Shown in pieces: positions 31,239 to 33,962 of a DNA stretch of 64,000 nucleotides (the stretch's first letter is position 1; each line of letters begins with the position of its first letter). The notes under the pieces are model-generated. The model saw only the letters and a list, made by a program, of their open reading frames with translations. It was not told the origin of the DNA and made no database searches. The translations under genes were made by a program, and so were the position numbers. Source of the DNA: Nannochloris sp. 'desiccata' (taxonomy: Eukaryota; Chlorophyta; Trebouxiophyceae; Chlorellales; Chlorellaceae); NCBI GenBank assembly GCA_019044685.2, contig JAGTXX020000014.1, positions 62,001-126,000 on the forward strand. The letters are read 5' to 3'.

Positions 31239-33962
31239 TTATGCCTTGGATGTTGTACTACGGAATTCAGTACGAGCTGCACCAGCACCAACACCAGTAG
31301 CATCATTATCTCCGCCAACTGCAATATCAACAGAGGGTCTCATAGCAGCGCAGGCAGCCAACGCTCTGTGCACTGGGTGATTCTTGAAATCAGAGATAGT
31401 TTCTGGGTCAACAGCAGTGCCATTATCCACAGCAACGTAGGCTTGCTGATCCAAAATATAATCGAATCGCGGTGCCCATTTACGAGACCCAAGACGAGCG
31501 GTATAAGAGCAGTTATCTACCATAAAGGCAACACCACGAGCGTGCATATAAGGATTTAAAGAGTCTACAGCCTCAATAATAGACTCATTGCAAATCTCAG
31601 AGAAGGGATGACCCTTTTCAGTTAACGTTTTCACAGTGGCCATCATCACAGCGATATAGATACCAGCAGTAAAAGGGTTGATGGGGATTTTTTCTTCTAC
31701 ACGTTCAGCGCGCACCTTTTTACCTACTTGCCACATGTGGGTCTGATCAATGATACCCATTGGCCAGCGGTCGAAACGCTCAACGGCGTTGACCACAGAT
31801 TTGATTTCATTGCCGCAAGCGACATCTTCGTAGATTTCATAGCAAATATCCATAGCAGGGCCGACAGCAGCAGAGTAGGCCTGTTCGAAGATCTTCTTAC
31901 CAGCAGCATCGAATTGTTCGTACACACCGAGCATACCATCACGAGATATGATACGGGTAATGGGGCCAGTGATGGATTCCACAGACTCACGGAAGGCATC
32001 CTCATCGCTGTAAAATTAGAAAGAAAGGGAAAGAGGGATAGCATAGGGGAGGGGAAAAAGACTACGTTTAGTTCAGTTTATTAGAAACTAAATAATATAT
32101 AATAGGTAAATGCAGGGTGAAAGCAAAAGAAGAGCATGACGAGAGCAAGAAAGCAAAAAGAATGCAGAAAAGTGCAGCTGAACTGAACTGAATAATGTGA
32201 TCAATCAATTCACTTTAATTTCTTCTTTTCTCTACTCCTGCTCTCGTGCCCTCTACTCTGCCTCCAATAGACTAAGGTAATACATATACATGCATATATA
32301 ATCAATGAACTAACCTCATGCCGTCGCGGGTGTACCGGCGGAAAAGTGACTCCACAGCCCCATGAACACCACCAAGAATGCAGCAACGCTCACCATAAAT
32401 ATCACTGTTATTATATAATAGCAGTAATAAGGGTAGAGAGAAGAGACGGGTGGCAGAGAGAAGGGTGGTAGAGGAAAGTTGAAGCAAGGGAGAAAAGAAA
32501 GAAAAAATACGAGAGTCAGTTCAGCTGCACTTATAATTTGTTCAGAATACCCACCTCATTCCCTGCTGTGCATAGCGACGGAAAAGAGACTCTACAATGC
32601 CGTGAACAGCCCCAAGTAATACAGCACGTTCCCCATAAATGTCGCTGCGACGAGATAGAATCAATAATGTTGGAATATAAAGATATATATAAATTATAAA
32701 AGCCTCCTATCCCCCCTGCTGCCGCTGCTCCAGAATCACCCATTAGCACAAATTTCCCCACTTGAAAATTTAAAATAAGAGAAATAAATTGAAATCAACT
32801 TACCTTTTATATTCAGACTCCAAGGTAGTGCAGAAAGCAAAAGGAGCACCCACAGCAATAGCCCAACCAACAGCAATATCACTGGCAGTTCCAGTAGCAT
32901 CTTGATGCACGGCAAAAGAGGCATTGATACCAGCCCCATTGACGCTCTTGCCTTGTTCATAAAGACGGCGAACAGAGGGACCCATTCCCTTGGGGGCAAC
33001 GAGAACCACGTTGATATCCTTACGGAAATCAACGTTGTCGTTCTGCATCACACCAAGTAAGAATCCATGGGATAAACCAAGTGTAGCACCAGGTTTCATG
33101 GCAGCAAGAATCCGAGGGTAGAGTTTTGCTTGAGCAGCGTCGGAAATAAGGCAGACAACCATGTCAGATTTAGAGATAACGTCGAAAACTTCACCAAGAG
33201 TACCGTCTTTTTCGTTAAAATTGACGGCACGGGCTTCCTCGCAAGAAGGGGAGTCGGGACGGAGCCCAATCACAACTTTAGTGTCCATGCCAGCCTCGGC
33301 GAGAGAATCACGGAGGTTTTGAGCTTGGGCGGGAGCTTGAGAGCCCCATCCGATGACACCGATCTGCTTGATGCCCTTGAAAGCTTCAGGGAGGAGGTTG
33401 TACTTGTCACGTCCACCTCTGTAGAAATATAGGAAGAGGAAGCATATTAAATAATATTGTTGGAGACGGGGAGATGGAAATGAGAAGAGACATTTGATAA
33501 AGCCAGCAAGAGACCAAAAAACAATTGAAGATACTGGGGAACATTGAGAATACATCCGTGTTCTATCTACACAGCGGTGTGAAATTGCGTTCTCAGAATA
33601 CACAGGCTAGTTGCAAATGTGATGTTATAGATGCTGTTCTAATCATGTCTTTTCAAGCCTCCAAACTGAGAATGCGCTTCCATCGTCCCACTCTATCGCC
33701 TTGAATTATACGTGACTGCTTATATGATTCTTATTAAAGCTTCATCCTACCTGTAGATATACTCCTCGGTATCAGCAAATTTCACCAGCTCCTTCTTGAA
33801 CACCTTGGTGTCGTAGTCAAATTGGACTGCAGCAGCAACCTGCATGCCGAGGTTGCGACCGGCACGGAATCCACGAGCGGGAACAGCGCGCACGACGTTC
33901 GCAGAGCCCAGGCGAGGTGCCTGAATGGCTGCCGAGAGAGATGCCGTGGACATGGAAGCCAT
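31239..33962 (-). CDS. ilvC: Ketol-acid reductoisomerase, plastid, plant type (class II), with a duplicated alternative exon
   Basis: Exons 33751..33962, 32804..33418, then either 32555..32644 (3a) or 32315..32404 (3b), then 31239..32007. With one variant exon the protein has 561 residues, the plant precursor length. Residues 1-45 ([20 protein letters not shown] start, Ser/Ala/Arg-rich) are a plastid transit peptide. The NADPH domain has [20 protein letters not shown] near residue 85. The variant exon supplies SDIYGER, whose Asp and Glu bind the two magnesium ions. The last exon has [19 protein letters not shown] and [20 protein letters not shown], the other metal ligands and the substrate-contacting Cys-Ser. 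It converts acetolactate and acetohydroxybutyrate in valine, leucine and isoleucine synthesis. All junctions at the variant exon are phase 2, so either copy fits. The gene is head-to-head with the SET-domain gene. Confidence 0.95.
32170..32186 (-). repeat. Intronic inverted repeat, downstream arm (between exon 3b and exon 4)
   Basis: Plus-strand AAGTGCAGCTGAACTGA, the exact reverse complement of 32516..32532. Pairing of the two arms would enclose exon 3b and its splice sites in a loop of about 330 nt. Confidence 0.8.
32315..32404 (-). other. ilvC: Alternative exon 3b of ketol-acid reductoisomerase
   Basis: 90 nt with acceptor ATAACAG and donor GAG|GTTAGT. It encodes SDIYGER followed by CCILGGVHG, then AVESLFRR and YTRDGM. 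21 of 29 whole codons encode the same residue as exon 3a. About a dozen of those differ only at synonymous positions, which indicates an old duplication kept under protein-level selection. Confidence 0.82.
32516..32532 (-). repeat. Intronic inverted repeat, upstream arm (between exons 3a and 3b)
   Basis: Plus-strand TCAGTTCAGCTGCACTT. It is perfectly complementary over 17 nt to 32170..32186, on the other side of exon 3b. In the pre-mRNA it lies 22 nt downstream of the 3a donor. Confidence 0.8.
32555..32644 (-). other. ilvC: Alternative exon 3a of ketol-acid reductoisomerase
   Basis: 90 nt with acceptor CGTCGCAG and donor GAG|GTGGGT. It encodes SDIYGER followed by AVLLGAVHG, then IVESLFRR and YAQQGM. 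This version matches the plant consensus ([12 protein letters not shown]) more closely, so it is probably the ancestral form. Confidence 0.85.

Follow-up and report, generated by a model that had tools for sequence, protein, structure and literature searches.

The best-known mutually exclusive exons are those of animal genes for signalling and adhesion. According to passages of a large survey, residues particular to exons of this kind cluster at functional sites or close to them (PMC7954323). Exons 6a and 6e of coq-2, 134 nucleotides (nt) each, are mutually exclusive in nematodes and other rhodoquinone makers (passages of PMC7434440), and the cyn23 gene of the green alga Volvox carteri has mutually exclusive exons of 106 nt each, which were verified by reverse transcription PCR (passages of PMC4378016). 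For Dscam, 14-3-3zeta, Mhc, MRP1 and srp, docking-site/selector RNA structures are described in passages of PMC6071210. Here we analyse the ketol-acid reductoisomerase (KARI) gene on the minus strand of a 64,000-nt stretch of DNA from Nannochloris sp. 'desiccata' (contig JAGTXX020000014.1, positions 62,001 to 126,000; hereafter the window), in which two adjacent exons, 3a and 3b, each encode the metal-binding Asp and Glu together with the helix that follows them.

Exons 3a and 3b are equal in length and in phase, and splicing in silico with 3a alone or with 3b alone yields a KARI of 561 amino acids that has no internal stop. Inclusion of both exons gives 591 amino acids and inclusion of neither gives 531; every combination is in frame, so that decay of frame-shifted mRNA cannot police the choice of exon. 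Being adjacent, homologous and equal in length and phase, the two have the anatomy of a tandem mutually exclusive exon pair. An earlier reading of this DNA from its letters alone (the sequence-only reading) had proposed two 90-nt exons, 150 nt apart, with good splice sites and the same phase, and its coordinates and phases proved exact. In a search of the 21.55-Mb genome, the 3a peptide matched only at 3a and 3b, and the exon-2 protein had one match.

The encoded enzyme is a class II (plant-type) KARI, which aligns end to end with the rice and spinach enzymes. Both isoforms score above the curated cut-off for KARI_N (120 bits) and for KARI_C (138 and 134 bits, in two stretches), and residues 43–541 align with rice 3fr7 (4.8e-208) and spinach 1qmg (2.1e-206). 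Translation bears out the earlier statement that each exon encodes SDIYGER plus the following helix; the metal ligands D315 and E319, mapped through 1qmg (in which chain positions 243–244 are Ser314-Asp315 by offset), are present in each. Passages of PMC13430628 name D315, E319, R320 and E496 as residues of spinach KARI, and a conserved stretch in exon 4 matches E496, as counted by hand from the alignment.

The two exons are identical at 60 of 90 nt. When the split Ser is included, 9 of their 30 codons are identical, 13 are synonymous and 8 are non-synonymous, and 13 of the 22 residues in common are encoded by different codons; the earlier counts, 21 of 29 residues shared and about a dozen of these with different codons, agree with ours once the split Ser is counted. 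Based on the Nei-Gojobori method, the proportion of synonymous differences (pS) is 0.79, which is saturated, the proportion of non-synonymous differences (pN) is 0.19 and the corresponding distance (dN) is 0.22, which supports the earlier proposal that selection has kept both exons. In spinach numbering, the exons differ at 321 (A in 3a, C in 3b), 322 (V, C), 323 (L, I), 326 (A, G) and 330 (I, A), and at three further residues near the exon end (A/T, Q/R and Q/D). The earlier placing of the differences just after the metal motif (AVLLGA versus CCILGG) thus describes 321, 322, 323 and 326, to which 330 and the three residues near the exon end are to be added. A duplication reaching into the introns was rejected for want of clear similarity, since shuffled sequences scored as well in 190 of 500 cases for introns i2/i3, 219 of 500 for i2/i4 and 115 of 500 for i1/i3.

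To follow the pair beyond this alga, we used the KARI proteins of relatives, given here by row label (P-numbers); the main listing comprises the best 120 of 5071 matches, clustered at 90% identity, and 254 motif peptides were taken from 257 distinct listed proteins and the window. We defined type 3a by A-V-L at 321–323 with A at 326, and type 3b by C, I and G at 321, 323 and 326, so that 3a residues 321–323 and 326 are invariant by construction. Among the matches listed, the nearest named KARIs are those of Chlorella, Picochlorum, Micractinium and Parachlorella, the last three of which were checked to be Trebouxiophyceae. The nearest named KARIs are therefore those of trebouxiophyte green algae, which rules out the red-algal host that the sequence-only reading had assumed.

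Both types recur in these algae. The 254 peptides include 17 of type 3a (12 of them distinct) and 30 of type 3b. In twelve of the former, namely P0122 and eleven others, the motif lies in an open reading frame (ORF) with no exon-2 sequence ahead of it, and these would most simply be stand-alone exons in genomic DNA. The Chlorella vulgaris locus D9Q98_007282 has two annotated proteins, P0009 (3a) and P0010 (3b), that differ at 6 of 562 residues, all within this exon. A further C. vulgaris model (P0001) and a Parachlorella kessleri model (P0014) have both exon types written in tandem, and the ORF of P0122 reads 3a, then 27 residues that look like an intron of ∼84 nt, then 3b; the search of related algae for the duplicate thus finds both types in three relatives' sequences. 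Chlorella sorokiniana 'isoform A' (P0007) is of type 3b, Micractinium conductrix 'isoform B' (P0008) is of type 3a, and two listed Picochlorum proteins are of type 3b. The window's 3a differs from that of C. vulgaris at 3 of 30 residues and its 3b from that of Picochlorum at 1 of 30, compared to 8 of 30 between 3a and 3b. Because the pair recurs in other algae, the duplicate is neither chance nor an artefact of assembly, and the exon pair is in all likelihood real, old, conserved and functional. A search for DNA of the relatives gave nothing among viral contigs and 53 prokaryotic loci among genome contigs.

To place the duplication, we examined a tree of 37 exon peptides, hand-chosen from the 254, whose 30 columns make it low-powered. 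Ten type-3a and nine type-3b rows fall on opposite sides of one branch (support 84/81), and the remaining 18 of 37 rows belong to no group; six of these (P0021, P0024, P0042, P0055, P0065 and P0077) lie on the side of 3b, the other twelve on that of 3a. The copies of this alga, C. vulgaris, Parachlorella and P0122 cluster by type, not by species. One tandem duplication very probably predates the split of this alga, Chlorella and Parachlorella, with both types kept since, as judged from these peptides. The order of exons in the Parachlorella model P0014, with 3b ahead of 3a, tells against a single event, as it is the reverse of that in the window, P0001 and P0122; it could reflect a third copy once present, or an error in the gene model. 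Independent duplications in each lineage, converging on the same residues, would account for the reversed order and sit easily with a tree of 30 columns only, and a separate 36-residue duplication in Chara braunii shows that the region can duplicate again. Such convergence is nevertheless very unlikely, given the grouping by type just described and the several diagnostic residues in common.

The Chara braunii case concerns locus CBR_g28546, where models P0121 and P0125 are distinguished by an insertion of 36 residues, which for the most part repeats the same KARI helix. It was ruled out as the same duplication, as P0121 has 36 residues and a different boundary.

Which exon is used was considered from the same proteins. 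Alternative use of the two exons, as the earlier reading had envisaged, is indicated in C. vulgaris by the annotation, in which one locus tag carries both P0009 and P0010; in this alga, 3a and 3b may be strictly mutually exclusive. Two counts weigh against an even partnership of the two exons. First, all eight close cDNA-like relatives (P0002, P0003, P0006, P0011, P0012, P0013, P0024 and P0056; at least 81% identity, among the best 120 of 5071) are of type 3b; their contigs of ≤2.3 kb are probably cDNA, because they are too short for an intron-bearing gene. Second, the C. vulgaris entry P0010 (3b) represents 7 contigs, and P0009 (3a) a single one. These counts point to 3b as the major form in relatives; since clustering was at 90% and the two forms are ∼99% identical, 3a members could be hidden in the lists. 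The same counts, together with the 3b type of both listed Picochlorum proteins, are what would be seen if 3b were the working exon and 3a a rarely used leftover. We consider this unlikely, as 3a retains its splice sites and an uninterrupted frame, is seen repeatedly as an intact exon (12 distinct peptides in the set of 17), is used in annotated C. vulgaris and Micractinium proteins, and is not the exon that the RNA structures predicted here disfavour, which is 3b.

The tandem models P0001 and P0014 raise the further prospect that both exons are joined into a 591-residue enzyme with a doubled metal motif, which would be in frame. No cDNA-like entry among the 257 distinct listed proteins has both exons, however, and one locus tag of C. 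vulgaris has in addition two proteins, each with only one of the two exons. The AlphaFold2 model computed for P0001 from 20 sequences has a mean predicted local distance difference test score (pLDDT) of 73.9 and a predicted template modelling score (pTM) of 0.77; pLDDT falls below 50 at the doubled stretch, 282–315, where the alignment is gapped, and also at 1–44, 218–234 and 567–592. The model gives a weak hint that a doubled form would be inactive, and we regard the joined enzyme as highly improbable.

The forms made with 3a and with 3b differ at 321–323, 326 and 330, which adjoin the metal site in sequence; they may thus be unlike in kinetics, substrate preference or stability while catalysing the same type of reaction, an expectation that we hold to be evenly balanced. 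That the swap changes the preference between acetolactate and acetohydroxybutyrate would be a guess; Leu323 and Leu324 presumably line the substrate pocket, as in the earlier reading, an assignment that we did not find in print. Single-motif KARIs of more distant algae, P0055 (Tetraselmis), P0065 and P0042 (labelled 'Botrbrau'), carry 3b-like residues (CCILGG, CIILGG), and an enzyme could therefore work with such residues alone. Entries in which exon 2 is joined to the motif can likewise have Ala at 321 (AILLGA forms).

The introns flanking exon 3b contain long-range complementary elements, as docking-site/selector systems do around a variable exon; neither this inverted repeat nor a hairpin at the 3b splice site was in the sequence-only reading. 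Box A starts 22 nt after the 5' end of the intron between 3a and 3b, and box B, in the intron after 3b, is its perfect complement over 17 nt (Table 1). Within 700 nt, the window has no perfect, non-palindromic inverted repeat longer than A:B; the next is 13 nt. In 5000 shuffles of the introns the longest complement was 14 nt, and 17 nt was reached in none. In real sequence, sampled from this genome (twenty stretches of 10 kb) and from the window with the KARI gene excluded, 29 of 19,916 placements reached 17 nt, all from two mobile-element-like places. An origin of the boxes from a dispersed repeat was rejected, as the genome holds no further exact copy; one site has 1 mismatch and nine sites have 2. 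The similarity of the introns i3/i4 (33 of 500 shuffles as similar) reflects the near-palindromic boxes.

The two mobile-element-like places in the same genome, L077:285-946 and L076:7236-7576, hold large perfect inverted repeats, with arms of 148, 92 and 40 nt in the first and 25 nt in the second.

The predicted energy of the A:B duplex is -29.7 kcal/mol, compared to -10.7 kcal/mol for box C with box B. Box C was accordingly dismissed as a competing partner of box B, its pairing probability being 0.00 in all segments that hold it (10 of 14), and no two selectors competing for one docking site were found. The duplex of the two whole introns flanking 3b is also strong (-85.2 kcal/mol; shuffles give -41.1 ± 4.9, and none of 500 is as strong). 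The other two intron pairs are ordinary, with 41 of 500 and 214 of 500 shuffles as strong; the first of these values belongs to the introns on either side of 3a, and a loop-out of 3a was rejected on this basis. The pyrimidine tract upstream of 3b can pair with the purine-rich stretch downstream (-45.7 kcal/mol, without a control, and part of the intron duplex), and in the predicted fold the purine-rich stretch (32205–32265) pairs inside its own intron, not with the tract. The hairpin over the 3' splice site of 3b, folded as a 51-nt piece, has a z score of -3.2 with 0 of 200 shuffles as stable, and a probability of 0.99 in 14 of 14 folded segments.

Several results weigh against a role for these structures. 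GC-matched genome segments form a duplex as strong as -85.2 kcal/mol in 3 of 261 cases (the top 1%), and all segments in 181 of 1500, so that the shuffle figure overstates the intron duplex. The whole 798-nt exon-intron stretch gains little over shuffles: 1 of 20 is as stable, and the z score is -2.3. The predicted probability of A:B pairing ranges from 0.19 to 0.93, depending on which of 14 segments is folded, and in P0211 an inspection of the translated flank by eye points to a box A that is not identical. In favour of such a role, segments with little A:B pairing have box A bound to the 5' splice site of 3b instead (up to 0.78), and the summed probability that it pairs with one or the other is 0.91 to 0.97 in 14 of 14 segments. 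This is a competition of a different kind from that between two selectors.

Considering the whole, we find it probable that the KARI gene makes two enzyme forms by use of 3a or 3b, with the choice probably helped by folding of the pre-mRNA; that folding helps the choice in this species is, taken by itself, finely balanced. Each form would have either 3a or 3b to supply the metal-binding Asp and Glu and the next helix. Box A, just after 3a, would pair with box B, so that 3b would be looped out and 3a brought near exon 4; alternatively, box A would pair with the 5' splice site of 3b. Either state of box A, together with the hairpin over the 3' splice site of 3b, would disfavour 3b, and 3a would be joined to exon 4. 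If the structures were opened by a protein, by transcription speed or by temperature, 3b would be used. As predicted, the structures all act against 3b, and the sequence gives no means of skipping 3a when 3b is used. Because close relatives mostly show 3b, the structures may act as a brake on 3b that is released, and not as the default.

The alternative exons might instead be chosen by splicing proteins, splice-site strength or crowding, with the inverted repeat and the hairpin incidental. The strong dependence of A:B pairing on the segment folded and the rank of the intron duplex, merely in the top 1% of GC-matched segments, are consistent with this explanation, as is the intron of ∼84 nt between the exons of P0122 (inferred from the read-through ORF), where crowding could suffice. 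Here, however, the intron is 150 nt, near the length of its 159-nt neighbour; a 17-nt complement arises in only 29 of 19,916 natural placements, from the two mobile-element-like places, and in 0 of 5000 shuffles; and the 17-mer pair sits in both introns flanking one alternative exon and is otherwise absent from the genome. Incidental structure is thus a serious contender, to which we give somewhat less than an even chance.

Table 1. Features of the KARI gene and of the predicted RNA structures around exon 3b (positions are those of the window)
Feature	Positions	Strand	Remarks
KARI exon 1 (start codon, presequence-like N-terminal stretch)	33751..33962	-	boundary AG|gtagga; 561-amino-acid frame open to stop
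KARI exon 2 (NADPH-binding domain)	32804..33418	-	ends |gtaagt; Pfam KARI_N 88-262
Intron 2-3a, 159 nt	32645..32803	-	
Exon 3a, 90 nt, metal-binding Asp and Glu and helix	32555..32644	-	cag|CGACATT...ATGAG|gtgggt; 3a-type exons in relatives
Intron 3a-3b, 150 nt	32405..32554	-	
Exon 3b, 90 nt, alternative version	32315..32404	-	cag|TGATATT...ATGAG|gttagt; 3b-type exons in relatives
Intron 3b-4, 307 nt	32008..32314	-	
KARI exon 4 (remaining C-terminal domain, stop TAA)	31239..32007	-	open frame; Pfam KARI_C
Box A, in intron after 3a	32516..32532	-	AAGTGCAGCTGAACTGA; inverted repeat; exact 17-mer in the genome only here and at box B
Box B, in intron after 3b	32170..32186	-	TCAGTTCAGCTGCACTT; complementary to box A at every position; their pairing would put 3b in a loop
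Box C, second and weak partner for box B (11 of 12 nt)	32067..32078	-	probably irrelevant
Hairpin covering 3' splice site of 3b	32400..32429	-	inverted repeat; fold prediction
5' splice site of 3b (gttagttca)	32306..32314	-	alternative partner of box A (32515-32523)
Purine-rich stretch after 3b	32205..32265	-	can pair with pyrimidine tract upstream of 3b (32430-32510)

The KARI gene has a divergent neighbour, an ORF at 34328–36364 on the plus strand. It encodes a Rubisco LSMT substrate-binding domain (29.3 bits against a cut-off of 21.6), together with a long run of alanines, and its first ATG, at 34328, is 366 nt from the KARI start codon. No known RNA families or tRNAs were reported within the window.

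KARI is pursued as a herbicide target. It is also of interest for isobutanol production, according to passages of PMC11264209. The exon pair is a long-kept one in a core biosynthetic enzyme of green algae, and it exchanges the catalytic metal ligands along with the adjoining helix. Active-site variants that differ at 8 of 30 residues are a natural experiment on the role of this helix in rate and in substrate choice, and the inverted repeat makes an RNA mechanism directly testable. More speculatively, RNA-structure-controlled exclusive splicing of KARI across the Chlorellaceae might shift flux, as growth conditions change, between the synthesis of valine and leucine and that of isoleucine, or might alter enzyme stability; we consider this doubtful, but if it were true, splicing would switch the catalytic metal site of a core enzyme in unicellular algae.

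We found no prior description of the KARI exon pair in a search made mostly by titles and abstracts, with few subscription journals covered. The pair is not shown in the portions consulted of PMC11387007, PMC10745002, PMC4378016 and PMC12702839; by term search, the main text of PMC4378016 contains neither 'reductoisomerase' nor 'isomeroreductase', and that of the 2025 microalgal splicing review PMC12702839 contains neither 'Chlorella' nor 'reductoisomerase'.

Compared with the described systems, the likeness to coq-2 lies in tandem exons of equal length that swap helices of an enzyme core; the choice in coq-2 is tied, across lineages, to the quinone made (passages of PMC7434440). The usage and function of the coq-2 exons have been studied, and the passages of PMC7434440 contain no RNA structure. 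Unlike coq-2, the swapped exon of KARI carries the metal-binding catalytic residues themselves, in a green alga, and is known from sequence. With cyn23 the KARI pair has in common exons of equal length, isoforms of equal length and a green-algal host, but cyn23 encodes a cyclophilin-related protein, not KARI (passages of PMC4378016). The spinach (1qmg/1yve) and rice (3fr7) KARIs are the same enzyme with the same catalytic residues, and have a single version of the exon versus two here. Long-range pairing between introns around tandem exons resembles that of Dscam-type genes, several of which have one partner downstream of the exon cluster (passages of PMC6071210), but KARI has one strong pair around one exon of two, and no second strong selector was found. 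By its anatomy, the KARI pair fits a known class, that of tandem mutually exclusive exons; its location at a catalytic metal site is unusual, and the putative RNA control element is a candidate that can be tested.

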